This document shows, one piece after another, positions 8,509-16,477 of a stretch of 64,000 nucleotides of DNA. The stretch covers positions 222,001 through 286,000 of the forward strand of contig NZ_CP058350.1 of NCBI RefSeq assembly GCF_005860795.2, written 5' to 3'. Positions within the stretch are counted from its first letter, which is position 1. Every line of letters begins with the position of its first letter. The notes below the pieces were generated by a model. That model worked only from the letters and a program-made list of their open reading frames with translations, did not search any database and was not told the origin of the DNA. Both the position numbers and the translations under genes were made by a program. The stretch is from Peteryoungia desertarenae (GTDB taxonomy: Bacteria; Pseudomonadota; Alphaproteobacteria; Rhizobiales; Rhizobiaceae).

Positions 8509-9279
8509 ATGACTGCCATCGATCTGAACAGCGACCTCGGCGAAAGCTATGGCGCCTGGGCTATGGGCGACGACGAGGCGATGCTCGCAATCGTCTCCAG
8601 CGCCAATGTCGCCTGCGGTTTCCATGCCGGCGATCCCGTCGGCATCCTGAAGACCGTGAAAGCTGCCGCAGAGCGCGGTGTCTCGATCGGGGCGCATGTC
8701 TCCTATCCCGACCGCGTCGGCTTTGGCCGGCGCGACATGGATGTCACATCAGCGGAACTGACCGCCGATGTGATCTACCAGATCGGCGCGCTGAAGGGTG
8801 TTGCGGCGGCTGCCGGCGTCACCGTCGGCTATGTGAAGCCGCATGGTGCGCTCTACAATCGCATCGCCCATGACCCGAAGCAGGGCCAGGCGGTGATCGA
8901 CGGGATCAAGGCGATCGATGCCGATCTGGTGATGATGGGGCTGGCAGGCTCGCCGATCCTCGATCTCGCCCGCGCCTCTGGGCTGAAGGTCGTTGCTGAG
9001 GCTTTCGCCGACCGCGCCTATACTCCTTCCGGTGCGCTTGTCTCCCGCCGGGAGCCGGGTGCGGTGCTGCACGATTCTGCGCTGATTGCCCGACGCATGC
9101 TGCAGCTTGCCCATGAGGGGACGATCGAGGCGATCGATGGTTCGACCATCAGGATCGAGGCTCAGTCCATTTGCGTGCATCGCGACAGCCCCGGTGCTGT
9201 CGCGATCGCGCGGGAGATCCGCCAGGCTTTCGAGAAGGACGGCATCACGGTGCGATCCTTCCTCCAAGCGCGTTCCTGA
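8509..9279 (+). CDS. pxpA: 5-oxoprolinase subunit A, LamB/YcsF family
   Basis: 256-residue LamB/YcsF-family protein. PxpA together with PxpB and PxpC forms the bacterial ATP-dependent 5-oxoprolinase that opens 5-oxoproline to glutamate. Family signatures include the N-terminal [32 protein letters not shown] and [10 protein letters not shown]. Length matches the family (about 245-255). The pxpB-pxpC fusion starts seven bases downstream, so the two are surely cotranscribed, and the biotin carboxylase gene follows. Confidence 0.9.
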
Positions 9280-9286
9280 GGCTCCG

Positions 9287-10888
9287 ATGCGTTTCCTTCC
9301 CGTCAGCCTGACCGTTCTGATCGTCGAATTGAACGATCTCGACGAGACGCTCGCGCTCTTTGCCTCGCTGGAAGCCGAACCGGTGGATGGCATCGTCGAC
9401 ATCGTCCCGGCGGCCCGGACGCTGATGATCCGGTTCCGTCCGGAGATCCTGACGGCGGAAGGCTTGGCTGCGGCGATCAGCACCCGTGATCTTTCGGCGA
9501 AGATTGCGCCGTCCGACATGCTGGTCGAGATCCCCGTCACCTATGATGGCGAAGACCTGAAGGATGTTGCGGAGCTGACGGGACTTTCCGTCAGCGAGGT
9601 GATCGAGCGGCACACGGCAAGCGAATTTACCGTGGCCTTTAGCGGCTTTGCGCCTGGTTTCGGCTATCTGGTCGGGGGCGACCCGGCCTTGCAGGTGCCG
9701 CGGCGGCAAAGCCCGCGCACGAAGATCCCCGCAGGATCGGTCGCGCTGGCCGGTGCCTTCTCCGGTGTCTATCCGCAGGCAAGCCCCGGTGGCTGGCAGA
9801 TCATCGGCACAACGCCGCTCAAGATGTGGGACCTTACGCGCGATCCACCTGCACTCTTCCAGCCGGGATACCGCGTGCGGTTCTTCGATCTTGCAAAGCG
9901 AACTCAGAGCGTGGTTGTGCCCGGTCGAGCAGAACCGATCTCCACCGGCACCACTGCATCCGATGCAGCCACGACGATTACTGTCACCGCAGCCCCGATG
10001 CCGGCGCTGGTGCAGGATCTCGGCCGTTTCGGCCAGGCCGGACAAGGCGTATCCTCCTCAGGCGCTCTCGACCAGGGGGCCTTCCGTGCGGCGAACCGGA
10101 TTGTCGGCAATCCCTTGGAAGCGCCCTGCCTGGAGATCACGATGGGCGGTTTCGCATTCGAGATTTCCGGGCCGACCGTGATGGCGCTTACCGGCGCTCC
10201 CTGCCCGATCGTTATCCGCAACAAGGCGGGTCGGACCATTCCAGCCGAAGGATATCAGCCGATTTCGCTCGAAGCGGGAGACATGGTTTCCCTCGGTTTT
10301 GCGCCAGGGGGAGCCCGCAGCTATCTGGCATTTCGTGGTGGTCTCGACGTGGCACCGGTTCTCGGCAGCGCCTCGACGGATACGCTCGCCGTAGTCGGGC
10401 CGGAGCCGGTCGGCGTCGGCGCGGTGCTAGCCATTGGACATGGAGAGCACCGCCTTTCGCCGGTGTCGCTGACCGAGAGCCCCGCCTTTGTCTGTCCGGC
10501 ACCGGGCGAAATCGTCACGCTCGATGTCGTCATGGGCCCCCGTAGCGACTGGTTCACCGAGCGGGGGATCAAGACGCTGTCGAGCCAGGTCTACGAGGTG
10601 ACGCCGCAATCGAATCGGGTCGGCATTCGGCTCTCCGCTCCTGAGGCGCTCGAGCGCAAGGACAAGGCGGAGCTTCCGAGCGAGGGGACGGCGACGGGGG
10701 CTATCCAGGTTCCGCATAGCGGGCAGCCCGTGCTCTTCCTCGCCGACCACCCGCTGACCGGCGGCTACCCGGTGATCGGCACGGTCGCCGAATATCATCT
10801 CGATCTCGCCGGCCAGATCCCGGTGAATGCGAAAATTCAATTCCGGCCCATAACGCGTTTCGCCGAGATCAAGCCCGACCGGGCATGA
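9287..10888 (+). CDS. 5-oxoprolinase subunits B and C fused (PxpB-PxpC, KipI-KipA type)
   Basis: A single 533-residue chain. Residues about 1-225 are PxpB/KipI-like (FSGFAPGFGYLVG, RRQSPRTKIPAGSVALAG), and residues about 235-533 are PxpC/KipA-like (GRFGQAGQGVSSSGALDQ, MGPRSDWF, ADHPLTGGYPVIG). Most bacteria encode these as two genes; fusions are also known. The same two domains form the carboxyltransferase half of urea carboxylase, which matters because a biotin carboxylase-BCCP gene follows 48 bases downstream. I chose the ATG at 9287, seven bases after pxpA; an earlier in-frame start would overlap pxpA by 190 bases without family resemblance. Confidence 0.88.
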   Translation: MRFLPVSLTVLIVELNDLDETLALFASLEAEPVDGIVDIVPAARTLMIRFRPEILTAEGLAAAISTRDLSAKIAPSDMLVEIPVTYDGEDLKDVAELTGLSVSEVIERHTASEFTVAFSGFAPGFGYLVGGDPALQVPRRQSPRTKIPAGSVALAGAFSGVYPQASPGGWQIIGTTPLKMWDLTRDPPALFQPGYRVRFFDLAKRTQSVVVPGRAEPISTGTTASDAATTITVTAAPMPALVQDLGRFGQAGQGVSSSGALDQGAFRAANRIVGNPLEAPCLEITMGGFAFEISGPTVMALTGAPCPIVIRNKAGRTIPAEGYQPISLEAGDMVSLGFAPGGARSYLAFRGGLDVAPVLGSASTDTLAVVGPEPVGVGAVLAIGHGEHRLSPVSLTESPAFVCPAPGEIVTLDVVMGPRSDWFTERGIKTLSSQVYEVTPQSNRVGIRLSAPEALERKDKAELPSEGTATGAIQVPHSGQPVLFLADHPLTGGYPVIGTVAEYHLDLAGQIPVNAKIQFRPITRFAEIKPDRA

Positions 10889-10936
10889 TCCGCCAAGCAG
10901 CGATGGCAGGCCAAGAGAGACAGTGAGGAGACCCCG

Positions 10937-12670
10937 ATGAAGAAAGTGCTGATCGCCAATCGCGGCGAAATCGCCGTGCGCATCATCCGCGCCTGCCGCG
11001 ACTACGGGCTTAAGTCCGTCGCGGTCTATGCCGATCCGGATCTGGATGCGATGTTCGTCAGGCTCGCGGATGAGGCTTATGGGCTGGGCGGCAGTCGTCC
11101 GGCAGAGACTTATCTCGATATCCAGAAGCTCATCGAGATTGCCCACCGGTCCGGCGCGGACGCGGTGCATCCCGGCTATGGGCTCCTGTCCGAACGGGCG
11201 GAATTCGCCCGCGCCGTGCAGGAGGCAGGCCTCACCTGGATCGGTCCGGATCCGCATGTGATCGAAGCGCTCGGCGACAAGGTCGAAGCGCGGCGGATCG
11301 CGCTTTCGGTCGGCGCTCCGCTGGTCGCCGGCAGCGATGGCCCGGTCGAGACGGCCGAGGAGGTAATCGCTTTCGCAAAAACACATGGACTGCCGGTTGC
11401 GATCAAGGCAGCGCATGGCGGCGGCGGGCGCGGCCTGAAGGTCGCCTGGAAGATGGAGGATGTGGCGGAGCTCTATCATTCCGCCGTGCGCGAAGCGGAA
11501 GCCGCCTTCGGCCGTGGCGAATGTTTCCTCGAACGTTTCCTTGATCGGCCGCGCCATATCGAGGCGCAGGTTCTCGCCGACAAGCATGGGAATGTTCTGG
11601 TGCTCGGCACGCGCGACTGTTCTCTGCAGCGGCGCAATCAGAAGCTCGTCGAGGAGGCGCCGGCGCCCTTCCTCAGCGATGCACAGCGGCAGGCGATCCA
11701 CGACGCGGCGAAGAAGATCTGCGCGGCCGCCGGTTATTCGGGAGCGGGCACGGTCGAGTTCCTGCTCGGTATCGACGGGACGATCTCGTTCCTCGAGGTC
11801 AACACCCGCCTGCAGGTCGAGCACCCGGTAACCGAGGAAACGACCGGGATCGACCTTGTCATCGAGCAGTTTCGGATTGCCGAGGGCAAGGCGCTTGAGG
11901 TGCTGGAAACCCCTGCCCCGCACGGTCACTCGATCGAGTTCCGCATCAATGCCGAGGATCCCGTCCGGGGCTTCCTGCCGACGCCGGGCGCAATCACCCG
12001 CTTCGACCCGCCATCCGGTCCGGGCGTGCGCCTCGACACGGGCGTGACCACCGGCTCGACAGTTCCGGGCACCTTCGATTCCCTGATGGCAAAGCTGATT
12101 GTCACAGGCGCGACCCGCGAGCAGGCGCTTGCCCGGGCGCGGCGTGCCCTTGCAGAGTTTGCCATCGAGGGTATTGCAACGGTGCTGCCCTTCCATCGTG
12201 CCGCAATGGAAGCCCGCGACTTTACGGGTGAAGATGGTTTCCGCGTTCACACCCGGTGGATCGAGACGGATTTCGCCGAACCGCTTGCAGCGGCAGCCCG
12301 GCCCGAGCCGCTTCCAGATAGATCGCTGATCCGCACCCATGTCGAGATCGACGGCAAGCGGCACGAACTTGCCATCCCGGCAGGCCTTCTCAGCGGCATT
12401 GGCGGACAGTCCAGCTCATCGACCAGCGGCTCCACGTCATCGCCAGAATCGGAAGATATGTCAGGCGTCAGAGCACCGATTTCCGGAACATTGCAGGCGT
12501 TCAAGATCGAGGATGGAGCCGAAGTCAAGGCAGGGGACCTGATCGCCGTGATGGAAGCAATGAAAATGGAGACACAGGTGACAGCACCGCGCGCCGGACG
12601 CGTCAGCCTGAACGAAAGCCCAGGCAGTTATCTACAGGCGGGAACCATGATTGCCCGTTACCAGGACTGA
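10937..12670 (+). CDS. Biotin carboxylase fused to a biotin carboxyl carrier domain
   Basis: 577 residues: a full biotin carboxylase (about 1-445, beginning [17 protein letters not shown], glycine-rich ATP loop [12 protein letters not shown], and catalytic-site segment [17 protein letters not shown]). A Ser/Thr-rich linker follows, then a biotinyl domain with EAMKME and the acceptor lysine at residue 543. There is no carboxyltransferase domain of its own. GAGGAG lies ahead of the start. Being in line with pxpA and pxpBC, it may supply carboxybiotin to the KipI/KipA-like domains. Alternatives are a subunit of an acyl-CoA carboxylase encoded elsewhere. The substrate cannot be read from the sequence. 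Confidence 0.88.
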
Positions 12671-12683
12671 CATGGGGCAGATC

Positions 12684-12713
12684 AAAAAAAGAGCGGCTGA
12701 GATCATCAGCCGC
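12684..12713 (-). terminator. Intrinsic terminator of gabT-gabD
   Basis: On the minus strand an 8-bp perfect stem (GCGGCTGA / TCAGCCGC, 5-base loop, 12693-12713) is followed within three bases by seven Ts. It lies 23 bases after the gabD stop and also separates gabD from the convergent biotin carboxylase gene. Confidence 0.85.
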
Positions 12714-12736
12714 CCGTCTCGTTGAAGACATCTACC

Positions 12737-14215
12737 TCAGATGCTGAGGCAGAGATACTTCATCTCGATATAGTCCTCGATCCCGTATTTCGAACCTTCG
12801 CGGCCCTGACCTGACTGTTTGATGCCGCCAAAGGGTGCGACTTCAGTTGAGATCAGACCGGTATTGATGCCGACCATGCCGTATTCAAGGGCTTCCGCCA
12901 CGCGGAAGACCTTGGACAGGTCACGGGAATAGAAATAGGAGGCGAGGCCGAATTCGGTATTGTTGGCCATGTCGATGACCTCCTCCTCCGTCTCGAACTT
13001 GAAGAGCGGCGCCACCGGTCCAAAGGTCTCCTCGCGCGCGACCTTCATATCGGTAGTCACGCCCGTCAGGATCGTCGGCTCGAAGAACAACCCGCCCTTT
13101 TCGCCGCGCTTGCCGCCAACAGCCACCTTGGCACCCTTGGACGTTGCATCCTCGATATGCTCCTCGACCTTGGCCAGCGCCTTGTCGGAAATCAGCGGAC
13201 CCGCATTCACGCCCGGCTCGAAACCGTCGCCTACCTTCATCTCACGCACTTTGATGGCAAGCTTTTCGGCAAAGGCATCATAGACACCGGACTGGACATA
13301 GATGCGGTTGGCGCAGACACAGGTCTGGCCATTGTTGCGGTACTTCGAAACCATCGCCCCCTCGACCGCCGCATCAAGATCGGCATCGTCAAAGACGATG
13401 AAGGGCGCATTTCCTCCAAGTTCAAGACCAAGCTTCATGATCTGGTCAGCGCCCTGGCGCATCAGGATTTTGCCGACATTGGTGGACCCGGTGAAGGTGA
13501 GCTTACGCACCTTGTCGTTCGAGCACATCTCCTGGCCGACTGCAGCCGAATCCGTCGATGTGATGACGTTGAACAAGCCGGCAGGCAAGCCTGCACGCTC
13601 GGCCAGCAGCCCCAGCGCCAGCGCAGAAAGCGGCGTCTCGCCAGCAGGTTTTGCCACAATGGCGCATCCGGCAGCGAGAGCCGGCGCCATCTTGCGGGCC
13701 AGCATGGCATTCGGGAAGTTCCAGGGCGTGATCGCCGCCACGACACCGACCGGCTGCTTGATGACGATGATACGCTTGTCCGGCTGATGGCCGGGGATTG
13801 TGTCGCCATAGATGCGCTTGGCCTCTTCGCCGAACCATTCGACATAGGAAGCACCGTAGAGGATCTCGCCCTTTGCCTCGGCGACTGGCTTGCCCATTTC
13901 CGACGTCAGAATGACCGCCAGGTCATCGGCATTGGCAACCATCAGATCGAAGAGCTTGCGCAAGATCCCAGCGCGCTCCTTGCCGGTCTTCGCGGCCCAG
14001 GCCTTCTGCGCTTTATAGGCGGCGTCGATCGCGCGTTTCGTTTCGGCAGGCCCCATGTCAGGCAGCGACGCGATCACCTCGCCGGTTGCCGGATTGCTGA
14101 CGTCAAAGCTCTTGCCACTATCACTCTTGGCGATCCACTCGCCATTGATCAGCGCCTTGTCGACCAGAAGGCTCTGGTCCTTCAACTTGGAAAGCAGTTT
14201 TTCGGAAATCGTCAT
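12737..14215 (-). CDS. gabD: Succinate-semialdehyde dehydrogenase, NAD(P)+
   Basis: 492-residue aldehyde dehydrogenase that would oxidise succinate semialdehyde to succinate, the second step of GABA degradation. Visible signatures: LELGGNAPFIVFDDADLD with the catalytic Glu, NNGQTCVCANRIYVQSG with the nucleophilic Cys, and ITPWNFPNAM in the cofactor domain. Length matches GabD (about 482-490). It lies three bases after gabT, which makes GABA aminotransferase plus semialdehyde dehydrogenase a two-gene operon. Substrate preference within the family is inferred from this context. Confidence 0.92.
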   Translation of the reverse strand: MTISEKLLSKLKDQSLLVDKALINGEWIAKSDSGKSFDVSNPATGEVIASLPDMGPAETKRAIDAAYKAQKAWAAKTGKERAGILRKLFDLMVANADDLAVILTSEMGKPVAEAKGEILYGASYVEWFGEEAKRIYGDTIPGHQPDKRIIVIKQPVGVVAAITPWNFPNAMLARKMAPALAAGCAIVAKPAGETPLSALALGLLAERAGLPAGLFNVITSTDSAAVGQEMCSNDKVRKLTFTGSTNVGKILMRQGADQIMKLGLELGGNAPFIVFDDADLDAAVEGAMVSKYRNNGQTCVCANRIYVQSGVYDAFAEKLAIKVREMKVGDGFEPGVNAGPLISDKALAKVEEHIEDATSKGAKVAVGGKRGEKGGLFFEPTILTGVTTDMKVAREETFGPVAPLFKFETEEEVIDMANNTEFGLASYFYSRDLSKVFRVAEALEYGMVGINTGLISTEVAPFGGIKQSGQGREGSKYGIEDYIEMKYLCLSI

Positions 14216-14218
14216 GTA

Positions 14219-15499
14219 TCAGGCTTCCTTGGCGCATTCGCGCAATGTGTGTTCCAGAATGTCGAGGGCTTCGGCAAAGACGTCGTCCTGAATGGTAATC
14301 GGCGACAGGAAACGGATGACATTGCCGTAGACGCCGCAGGTCAGAAGGATAAGGCCCTTTTCCAGCGCACGTAAACGGACCTTGTTGGTAAAATCAGCAT
14401 CCGGTGTCGTTGTTCCAGGCAGATTGAACTCAACTGCGTTCATGAAGCCTGGACCACGAATATCGGCGATTTGCGGCACTGCATCGCGAAGAGACTGGAG
14501 CCGCTGCTTCAGACGGTTGCCAAGGTAATCGGCCCGTTCGCAAAGCTTTTCTTCCTCAATCACATCAAGGACGGCATTGCCCGCTGCAATACCGATCGGA
14601 TTGCCGCCATAGGTGCCGCCAAGGCCGCCCGGGCCCGGTGCATCCATGATTTCGGCACGACCCGTGACCGCTGCGATCGGGAAACCGCCCCCCAATCCCT
14701 TCGCCATGGTCGTAATGTCCGGCACGACGCCATAATGCTCCATGGCAAACAGCTTGCCGGTTCGGGCAAAGCCGGTCTGCACTTCGTCAGCGATCAGCAG
14801 AATACCGTGTTTGTCGGCAATCTCGCGCAGCTTCGGCATGAAGCCACGCGGCACTTCATAGAAACCGCCCTCCCCCTGAACCGGCTCGACAATGAAAGCG
14901 GCCACGCGCGCGGGATCCACATCCGCCTTGAACAGCTTGTCGAGCACGGAAAGCGTATCCTCGACAGAGGTCCCATGCAGTTCCACCGGGAAGGGTACAT
15001 GGAAGACGTCCGGCATCATCGCGCCGAAACCGGTTTTGTACGGCACCACTTTGCCGGTCAGCGTCATGCCCATGAAGGTGCGGCCATGAAAGGCGCCGGT
15101 AAAGGCAATGACAGCAGAGCGATTGGTCGCGGCACGGGCGATCTTGATCGCATTTTCCACCGCCTCGGCACCGGTCGTGACAAAAATCGTCTTCTTCTTG
15201 AAAGCGCCGGGCACGGCATTGTTCAGACGCTCGGCGAGCGTCACGTAATTCTCATAGGGGATCACCTGATGGCAGGTATGGGTGAAGTGATCGAGCTGAT
15301 CCTTCACAGCAGCAATCACCTTCGGATGCCGATGCCCGGTATTGACGACGGCGATGCCGGCGGCAAAATCGATATAGCGCCGACCCTCGACATCCCAGAT
15401 TTCCGCATTCTCGGCGCGGTCGGCATAGACCTGCGTGGTGACGCCAACCCCGCGCGAAATCGCATCGGTCCTGCGTGCTGCAATTTCCGTATTCAACAT
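14219..15499 (-). CDS. gabT: 4-aminobutyrate aminotransferase
   Basis: 426-residue class III PLP aminotransferase that converts GABA and 2-oxoglutarate to succinate semialdehyde and glutamate. The PLP-lysine region reads TTMAKGLGGGFPIAAVTG, preceded by LLIADEVQTGFARTGK. The start is the ATG at 15499, giving the family N-terminus; the open frame continues 45 codons upstream but across the regulatory region and the palindrome. First gene of the gabTD operon, divergent from the MerR-XRE-cupin regulator 147 bases away. Confidence 0.92.
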   Translation of the reverse strand: MLNTEIAARRTDAISRGVGVTTQVYADRAENAEIWDVEGRRYIDFAAGIAVVNTGHRHPKVIAAVKDQLDHFTHTCHQVIPYENYVTLAERLNNAVPGAFKKKTIFVTTGAEAVENAIKIARAATNRSAVIAFTGAFHGRTFMGMTLTGKVVPYKTGFGAMMPDVFHVPFPVELHGTSVEDTLSVLDKLFKADVDPARVAAFIVEPVQGEGGFYEVPRGFMPKLREIADKHGILLIADEVQTGFARTGKLFAMEHYGVVPDITTMAKGLGGGFPIAAVTGRAEIMDAPGPGGLGGTYGGNPIGIAAGNAVLDVIEEEKLCERADYLGNRLKQRLQSLRDAVPQIADIRGPGFMNAVEFNLPGTTTPDADFTNKVRLRALEKGLILLTCGVYGNVIRFLSPITIQDDVFAEALDILEHTLRECAKEA

Positions 15500-15563
15500 G
15501 AAAATCCCCTGGATGTTCTTGGGCGCAAACAATGCCGGACGCAATCCACTGTTCCGGCGTTCG

Positions 15564-15581
15564 ATGCAAGATTTCTTGCAT
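15564..15581. promoter_or_regulatory. Perfect 18-bp palindrome in the gabT/regulator intergenic region
   Basis: ATGCAAGA-TT-TCTTGCAT is a perfect dyad of two 8-bp arms with a 2-bp centre, 65 bases upstream of the gabT start and 66 bases upstream of the regulator start. A further TTGCA half-site lies at 15595-15599. Position midway between divergent genes, one encoding a DNA-binding protein, makes it the best candidate operator for that regulator. This is inferred; no binding data can be seen. Confidence 0.65.
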
Positions 15582-15646
15582 TTTTTCTGTAGAGTTGCAA
15601 TGTGCCTCGAAAGATTTATCGAGAGGCTCGACACAGGGAGGTCGCA

Positions 15647-16477
15647 ATGGATGAGATCCGCTTCAAGATCGCTGAAGCCGCCCGCATGGCGGGCGTCTCG
15701 CCCTCAACCCTTCGCCTGTGGGAGAGTCAGGGCCTGATCGAACCCATCCGTACGGCCTCCGGCCAACGTCTCTTTACGCGGGACCACATAGAGCGCCTGA
15801 AGACCATCCGCTGGATGCGCAACGAGAAGGGTCTGAACCCGGCCGCCATCCGGGAGGCTCTGGCCGAGGAACCGCTCTTTGTGCCGCAGGCAAGTGAACC
15901 GGACGATGAGCTCGGGCCAACCCAGGGGACAGCGCTGTCCATCGGCTTCAAACTGCGGCGCCTGCGCCATGAAGCGGGAAAGACGCTAGAGACCGTGTCA
16001 CAGGCGACAGGCATTTCCGTTTCTCTGCTTTCAACCTTCGAGCGCACCTCCCAGGGCCTTTCCTTCAAGGCGCTGCATGAACTGGCAGATTATTTCGGCA
16101 CCACGATTGCCGCGCTCTCCGGCCAGGAGGACCAAAGGGAGGGGCAGTCCCTGATCCGGGCCGGCAAATGGGCGATCTGGCCTACCACGACGTCCGGTGC
16201 CACGGTCCAGGTGCTGGCAGAGGGGCGCAATCAGATGGAATGCCATCGCTTTCAACTGGCGCCCGGCGCATCAAGCGAGGGCGCATATCGGCACGAAGGC
16301 GAGGAATTCATTCACGTGTTGACGGGCCGGCTGGAAATCATTCTTGATGGCGACCAGTTCTTTGAACTCGGGCCCGGAGACAGCTTTTACTTCGAGAGCC
16401 GCCGTCCGCATTCCTGGCGCAACAGTGACGAAGGCGAAACCGTCCTTCTCTGGATCAACACACCGCCGACATTTTGA
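15647..16477 (+). CDS. Transcriptional regulator with MerR, XRE and cupin domains
   Basis: 276-residue regulator with three recognisable parts. Residues about 5-75 are a MerR-type winged helix (FKIAEAARMAGVSPSTLRLW). Residues about 100-165 are a Cro/C1-type helix-turn-helix (LRRLRHEAGKTLETVSQATG). Residues about 195-275 are a C-terminal cupin (GEEFIHVLTGRLEI, LGPGDSFYFES) likely to bind a small ligand. The ATG at 15647 follows a near-perfect Shine-Dalgarno (AGGGAGGT); an in-frame start 15 codons earlier lacks one. Divergent from gabTD, so probably a regulator of GABA use. The XRE-cupin part recalls PuuR of putrescine/GABA catabolism; the added MerR head is unusual. Confidence 0.88.
   Translation: MDEIRFKIAEAARMAGVSPSTLRLWESQGLIEPIRTASGQRLFTRDHIERLKTIRWMRNEKGLNPAAIREALAEEPLFVPQASEPDDELGPTQGTALSIGFKLRRLRHEAGKTLETVSQATGISVSLLSTFERTSQGLSFKALHELADYFGTTIAALSGQEDQREGQSLIRAGKWAIWPTTTSGATVQVLAEGRNQMECHRFQLAPGASSEGAYRHEGEEFIHVLTGRLEIILDGDQFFELGPGDSFYFESRRPHSWRNSDEGETVLLWINTPPTF

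Follow-up and report, generated by a model that had tools for sequence, protein, structure and literature searches.

A three-gene set of Peteryoungia desertarenae was analysed in a stretch of 64,000 nucleotides of contig NZ_CP058350.1 (positions 222,001 to 286,000, forward strand), the whole of which is called the window. The set is composed of a pxpA-like gene, a gene for a chain in which PxpB and PxpC are fused, and a gene for a biotin carboxylase (BC) joined to a biotin carboxyl carrier protein (BCCP) domain. The BC-BCCP protein and the fused PxpBC chain very probably form one biotin-dependent carboxylase, and it is fairly likely that the three genes together encode one biotin-dependent enzyme system which would open 5-oxoproline via carboxylation. 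A biotin-dependent carboxylase with PxpBC as its carboxyltransferase (CT) is well supported, because a BC accompanies the fused chain in every surveyed locus, the other BCs of the genome go, by size and position, with other CTs, and both chains are related to chains of PDB entry 9YX5.

Gene set and domain composition

The features of the set and its surroundings are listed in Table 1. The three genes had been placed in line by a preliminary description, with gaps of 7 bases (pxpA to the fused chain) and 48 bases (the fused chain to BC-BCCP), and the coordinates, lengths and gaps were all borne out; the 533-residue fusion and the EAMKME motif with Lys543 of the third gene were likewise confirmed by profile matches and by the sequence. 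PF02682 (CT subdomains C and D) covers residues 1-191 of the fused chain and PF02626 (CT subdomains A and B) residues 254-521. Three biotin carboxylase domains lie within residues 1-443 of the BC-BCCP chain and the biotinyl domain at 511-574, and all 20 aligned rows, the window row among them, have Lys at the Lys543 position. The pxpA product scored 379.3 bits against NCBIfam NF003814 (PxpA subfamily, cut-off 226), and the fused chain 236.8 bits against TIGR00724 (cut-off 230.2). PxpA, PxpB and PxpC homologues are together in one cluster, as defines PxpABC, and the parts of the biotin-dependent carboxylase superfamily, namely a BC, a BCCP with the lysine of the MK motif and a CT (a role predicted from homology), are also present. 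The urea carboxylase model TIGR02712, built on one chain with a cut-off of 1303.85, was matched by two chains with 157.1 and 516 bits, well below that value.

The predicted structure of the fused chain was of middling confidence (pLDDT 75.7, pTM 0.71), and no conclusion rests on it. A 600-aa open reading frame starting from TTG at 9086 was rejected as an over-extension; most of the named relatives begin to align at the first residue of the ATG form. The hairpin downstream of the set is weak on its own, because the terminator scan of the region gave fewer sites (4) than expected from shuffles (5.9).

Table 1. Features of the three-gene set and its surroundings in the window
Feature	Position	Strand	Evidence or remark
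pxpA-like gene (LamB/YcsF family), predicted ring-opening hydrolase	8509-9279	+	256 aa; PF03746, 338 bits
Fused PxpB-PxpC chain, predicted urea-carboxylase-type carboxyltransferase	9287-10888	+	533 aa; PF02682, PF02626, TIGR00724; tree with 9yx5_V
BC-BCCP gene, AccA3-like	10937-12670	+	577 aa; PF00289, PF02786, PF02785, PF00364; PDB matches; tree
Lys543 codon, predicted biotinylation site in EAMKME	12563-12565	+	sequence; alignment
GC-rich hairpin, possible terminator, between the set and the convergent gabD-like gene	12691-12715	.	T run scored on minus strand
Succinate-semialdehyde dehydrogenase-like (gabD-like) gene	12737-14215	-	convergent with the set
GABA (gamma-aminobutyrate) aminotransferase-like (gabT-like) gene	14219-15634	-	convergent with the set

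Linkage of biotin carboxylase genes to pxpBC

Whether a BC-BCCP gene follows pxpA-pxpBC and co-occurs with the fusion, as the preliminary description had asked, was surveyed in three sets of loci. The relatives set covered 60 relatives with 73 stretches around PF02626 matches, among which were 2 urea carboxylases; two partial matches and the remaining urea carboxylases were left out. The phylum set consisted of 80 of the 86 non-urea-carboxylase matches listed for 397 genomes down to an E value of about 1e-83, weaker matches being missing. For the named set, one scan with the fused chain gave 301 loci, of which the best 80 were used (Rhizobium, Agrobacterium, Shinella, Ensifer, Peteryoungia and others). 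A BC was found in the stretch beside 108 of 108 fused loci (24 relatives, 4 phylum, 80 named), and no fused chain without a BC was found among them. The 108 loci are not independent, because the fused chain itself was the query for the named set, which also shares some genomes with the relatives set. Separate pxpB and pxpC genes were accompanied by a BC in 34 relative and 20 phylum loci and had none in the stretch in 13 and 56 loci, respectively, and across the phylum sample a BC adjoined 24 of the 80 PxpC-type loci. The urea carboxylase-like fragment L156 was taken as separate without BC in this count and as fused without BC in the tree, where it sits in the urea carboxylase clade. By arithmetic from six BC genes in 4.34 Mb, a random 13-kb stretch is expected to hold a BC in about 2% of cases.

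The BC gene had the strand of the fused chain in all 108 fused loci. The gap between the two was from -4 to 55 bases in 105 of the 106 measured loci and 166 bases in one (2 loci were without measurement), and the BC start overlapped the PxpBC stop by 4 bases in 16 of the 106. pxpA was present in all 108 loci, pxpT was missing from 8, ycsI from 13, both from 6 and the BC from none, a few of the loci possibly being cut by contig ends. The neighbours differ stepwise: L043 and L049, from two relatives, are without ycsI and with pxpT, the window's genome (L042) has neither, and all three keep pxpA, pxpBC and BC-BCCP. A match was also present in 736 plasmid records, 9 of which were opened; 4 of them were fused, with a BC in 4 of 4 (L313, L315, L316 and L319).

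Other biotin carboxylases and carboxyltransferases of the genome

The six BC genes of the genome (4.34 Mb, 3 contigs) are an AccC-size gene beside an AccB-size BCCP gene, the window BC-BCCP, two alpha-subunit-size genes, one pyruvate carboxylase-size gene and one urea carboxylase. Both alpha-subunit-size genes are near PF01039 carboxyltransferases, and the four PF01039 matches are two beta-subunit-size genes near these alpha subunits, one AccD-size gene and one AccA-size gene; partner names for BC and PF01039 genes other than those of the window were assigned from frame size and position. PF02626 gave two matches, the window fused chain and the urea carboxylase, the latter (own copy on C2) adjoining allophanate hydrolase and a UAAP2 gene. 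Because this bookkeeping assigns all the others, the window BC-BCCP is the sole BC without another CT of these families, and the fused PxpBC is the sole such chain without another BC, since the other PF02626 match is the urea carboxylase. A pairing of the window BC with an acyl-CoA CT elsewhere in the genome, which the preliminary description had named as a possible refutation, was looked for, and none was found, all PF01039 genes being paired; by size and position, no acyl-CoA CT was found that would make the protein an AccA3-type alpha subunit of an acyl-CoA carboxylase. The genome has no Hydantoinase_B gene and therefore no OPLAH-type 5-oxoprolinase, and urea is already covered by the separate urea carboxylase with allophanate hydrolase.

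Kinship to PDB 9YX5 and other solved chains

PDB entry 9YX5, the source organism of which we take to be Mycobacterium smegmatis, holds AccA3 (a BC-BCCP chain) together with chains named allophanate hydrolase subunit 1 and 2, which are PxpB/PxpC homologues. The best PDB matches of the window CT include these allophanate hydrolase chains, 3mml and 3oep, and those of the window BC-BCCP are AccA3 of 5mlk (731 bits) and AccA3 of 9YX5 (725 bits) over residues 2-574, the next match having 460 bits. All trees were quick ones with SH-aLRT support only (numbers in brackets). The CT tree was built from the PxpB and PxpC domains of 87 representatives, and the comparison with 9YX5 was done with the CT_A_B half and the BC part. 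The 9 fused rows form one clade (99), the sister of which is a Streptomyces plasmid pair (100), and 9yx5_V was placed with the fused chains and the Streptomyces pair (98, 11 rows); the window CT is outside the urea carboxylase clade in the 87-row tree. AccA3 falls among the BCs of the fused sets (100, 14 rows) with identities of 62-71%, against at most 50% to all other rows, and for the window BC-BCCP the AccA3 clade was obtained with a support of 100 and an identity of 68%. At five columns 9yx5_V has the states of the fused chains, the window chain included: a gap in place of Gly131, and Pro134, Val200, Pro243 as well as Val250 (numbered by the E. coli PxpC domain; +7 gives the full chain). 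It does not share the His258 and Leu244 of the window chain. From these placements of 9yx5_V and AccA3, both halves of the window pair match chains of one solved entry. 9YX5 has the same three modules as the window set and differs in that its CT consists of two chains, whereas the window CT is one chain with the BC-BCCP gene in the same operon; AccA3 also occurs in other PDB entries without the CT-like chains.

The domains, the linkage, the absence of a spare PF01039 partner and the kinship of both chains to 9YX5 chains were established at the level of sequence comparison. The last three of these strongly support the earlier proposal that the third gene supplies the missing BC and biotinyl domain to a urea-carboxylase-like CT. 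The accompanying term "uncharacterised enzyme system" was right in part, a related entry (9YX5) being in the PDB, and the fusion is not new either: TTHA0988 (PDB 3oep) is a solved 494-aa chain with both CT halves, matched over residues 21-519.

PxpC residue signature

The column of E. coli PxpC Gln250 separates the groups well. Q is present there in 62 of the 72 plain loci and 1 of the 56 separate sets with a BC, and in none of the 112 fused loci, the 25 urea carboxylases and the single fused locus without a BC; these counts include the plain loci L314, L182, L069, L101 and L200, together with L152 and L156, all of which had been left out of a first pass. Since the test on independent pairs was not significant (8 pairs, mean 1.4 in the same direction against 0.1 in the opposite one), the signature is taken as a lead only and not as proof of function. 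Met207 is a weaker column, M being also found in 31 of the 56 separate sets with a BC. Ten plain rows deviate at Gln250 (L069, L101, L180, L182, L187, L191, L200, L205, L209 and L314), and the genomes of all but L314 were searched for BC genes. A second AccC-size BC gene was found in G347, G256 and G311; in G033 and G050 the additional BC genes near that size are part of other sets; and G379, G246, G399 and G203 have just one. A spare BC therefore cannot account for all the deviating plain rows.

Substrate, proposed mechanism and rival explanations

Among the 80 named loci, an Nramp gene like PxpT was present in 75 and a D-glutamate cyclase-family gene (YcsI family; "putative hydro-lyase" in NCBIfam) in 73, and the Streptomyces sister locus adjoins pyroglutamyl-peptidase I, which frees 5-oxoproline. 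These neighbours point to 5-oxoproline. According to a PxpABC paper (PMC13274462), glutamine and glutamate inevitably give rise to 5-oxoproline as a by-product, and PxpT, an Nramp relative, is needed by C. glutamicum for growth on it. A common operon of pxpABC and ycsG in Agrobacterium tumefaciens is credited to the 2017 PxpABC paper in PMC10448178.

Beyond the identification of the domains, the proposed steps are modelled on urea carboxylase. BC-BCCP would use ATP and bicarbonate for the formation of carboxybiotin on Lys543. Carried by the biotinyl domain, the carboxyl group would reach the fused PxpBC chain, and this chain, as the CT, would transfer it to the ring nitrogen of a lactam, for which 5-oxoproline is the most likely candidate. 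PxpA would then hydrolyse the activated amide and open the ring, and the N-carboxy product would lose CO2 to give glutamate. A physical complex in P. desertarenae, 5-oxoproline as the substrate, carboxylation as the activating step and this order of steps are what we infer.

Several observations weigh against biotin-dependent opening of 5-oxoproline. The fused chain missed the NCBIfam equivalog cut-offs of both PxpB (139.5 against 145.55 bits) and PxpC (164.7 against 500 bits). No YcsI-family gene was found in the window's genome, and the PxpT-like Nramp protein of a relative gave no match there in a search without a positive control; both weaken the 5-oxoproline argument here. YcsG of B. subtilis is regarded as a Mn2+ importer in one study (PMC10448178). 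PxpABC is described as a three-subunit enzyme with PxpB and PxpC as the presumed 5-oxoproline-phosphorylating subunits, and biotin occurs in the available text of that paper only as a strain auxotrophy and in one reference (PMC13274462); because PxpABC is described without biotin, the PxpBC fold presumably can work without it. The finding that no unpaired PF01039 gene is left for the window BC-BCCP was made by size and position, in a search for partners that did not extend to carboxyltransferases of the pyruvate carboxylase kind. Contact between AccA3 and the CT-like chains in 9YX5 is assumed from their presence in one entry.

The same biotin-dependent carboxylase and PxpA might act on another lactam or imide (2-pyrrolidone, a hydantoin-like compound or a plant-derived lactam). 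The gabT-like and gabD-like genes lie convergent beside the set, 2-pyrrolidone would open to GABA, and the lack of a YcsI-family gene and of a PxpT-like match in the window's genome would also suit such a substrate. This is nevertheless rather unlikely: the gabT-like gene was found in the fetched stretch of only 1 of the 108 fused loci, the window's own, so the gab neighbourhood is not conserved, the possible terminator hairpin stands between the set and the gab genes, and kin loci have 5-oxoproline-type neighbours. 2-Pyrrolidone as the main substrate was rejected on the same count, and for fungal lamA/lamB, considered as a parallel, the literature search gave nothing usable. Beside the gabT-like gene, 15602-16477 (+) encodes a 291-residue protein with a MerR-type helix-turn-helix, an Xre-type helix-turn-helix and a C-terminal cupin, which is, to our knowledge, an unusual make-up for a regulator.

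The set might also be an ordinary biotin-free PxpABC with which the BC-BCCP gene is merely co-transcribed for another job or for regulation. Plain clusters without a BC in the stretch are indeed common (56 of the 80 phylum loci and 13 of the 71 non-urea-carboxylase relative loci), but the survey gave no fused locus of that kind, no free PF01039 or PF02626 carboxyltransferase exists for the window BC, the kinship to 9YX5 speaks for the pair, and the fused chains are without residues conserved in plain PxpC such as Gln250, all of which make this improbable. Mycobacterial AccA3, a relative of the window protein, serves acyl-CoA carboxylases according to PMC11001197, and BC-BCCP could accordingly, as an AccA3-like alpha subunit, belong to an acyl-CoA carboxylase encoded elsewhere in the genome; with PF01039 matches that are of AccA or AccD size or are beta-subunit-size genes near their own BC genes, this is very improbable. 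A second urea carboxylase making allophanate would contain the same kinds of domains and has hardly any likelihood, the genome already having such an enzyme with allophanate hydrolase, the window CT lying outside the urea carboxylase clade, and the neighbour being PxpA and not allophanate hydrolase.

Several lineages of PxpBC and biotin carboxylase

The urea carboxylases cluster in the CT tree with separate pxpA-BCCP-BC-pxpB-pxpC sets and some others, including two rows without a BC (100, 21 rows). Seven further separate sets with a BC, plus 2 rows without, are the sister of the plain E. coli-like group (98, 100), and L152, which has a BC, was placed among plain rows. One clade of all biotin-linked rows and the Streptomyces row was rejected by the approximately unbiased test (p-AU 3.1e-81), the group having been named after the tree was seen. 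The PxpBC-linked BCs were in separate clades, respectively of the fused sets (14 rows, 100), the pxpA-first sets (22 rows, 99), two other gene orders (11 rows, 100) and L070, L080, L152 and L226 (100); one clade of these BCs and AccA3 was rejected more weakly (p-AU 0.0126). We tentatively suggest that PxpBC-type CTs may have been coupled several times with BCs of different lineages to PxpA, and that carboxylation-activated lactam hydrolysis may be a general enzyme class. Biotin-borne CO2 would then possibly replace phosphorylation as the activation of the lactam, with the biotin-free E. coli type sitting among these enzymes.

At least four further orders of the BCCP, BC, pxpA, pxpB and pxpC genes were seen in relatives and other proteobacteria (for example L082, L089, L102 and others; L083-L088 and others; L076 and L096; L070; L080), and three different sets occur together in some genomes (e.g. 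G011, G012 and G033). Two translated BCCP-BC-pxpB-pxpC-pxpA sets (L320:5435-5857, +; L109:7827-8234, -) contain a second BCCP-like gene in which the biotin lysine motif is absent, and two related sets with a lysine-less BCCP-like gene (L200:10778-11248, +; L209:2042-2512, -) had no BC in the stretch. The Klebsiella pneumoniae plasmid locus L313 (3150-9200) holds Nramp, pxpA, ycsI, fused pxpBC and a 539-aa BC frame together, and no BCCP match was found in that frame. Of all 736 matching plasmid records, which include those of urea carboxylases, 100 are from Klebsiella.

Relation to known systems and significance

The set resembles PxpABC of E. coli, B. subtilis and C. glutamicum in having PxpA, PxpB and PxpC homologues together. 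It differs from the E. coli set in that the fetched E. coli stretch has no BC and that the window PxpC departs from E. coli PxpC at Gln250 and other residues, and PxpABC is described as phosphorylating 5-oxoproline in PMC13274462. Urea carboxylase (TIGR02712) has the same BC, CT_A_B, CT_C_D and BCCP modules, but carries all of them in one chain and in another order beside allophanate hydrolase, and forms a separate clade. The pieces, chains with both CT halves (3oep) and the related AccA3 entry in the PDB are already known. A BC as part of PxpABC action, or repeatedly paired with PxpBC lineages, was not found described in the titles and abstract starts of a partially covered literature, and no claim that it is unpublished is made.

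If a large set of bacteria opens 5-oxoproline with biotin and CO2, the present annotation of genes beside PxpB/PxpC as acetyl-CoA carboxylase subunits would be wrong, and the role of the CT fold in the biotin-free enzyme would become testable by comparison. AccA3 would also gain a role outside lipid synthesis.

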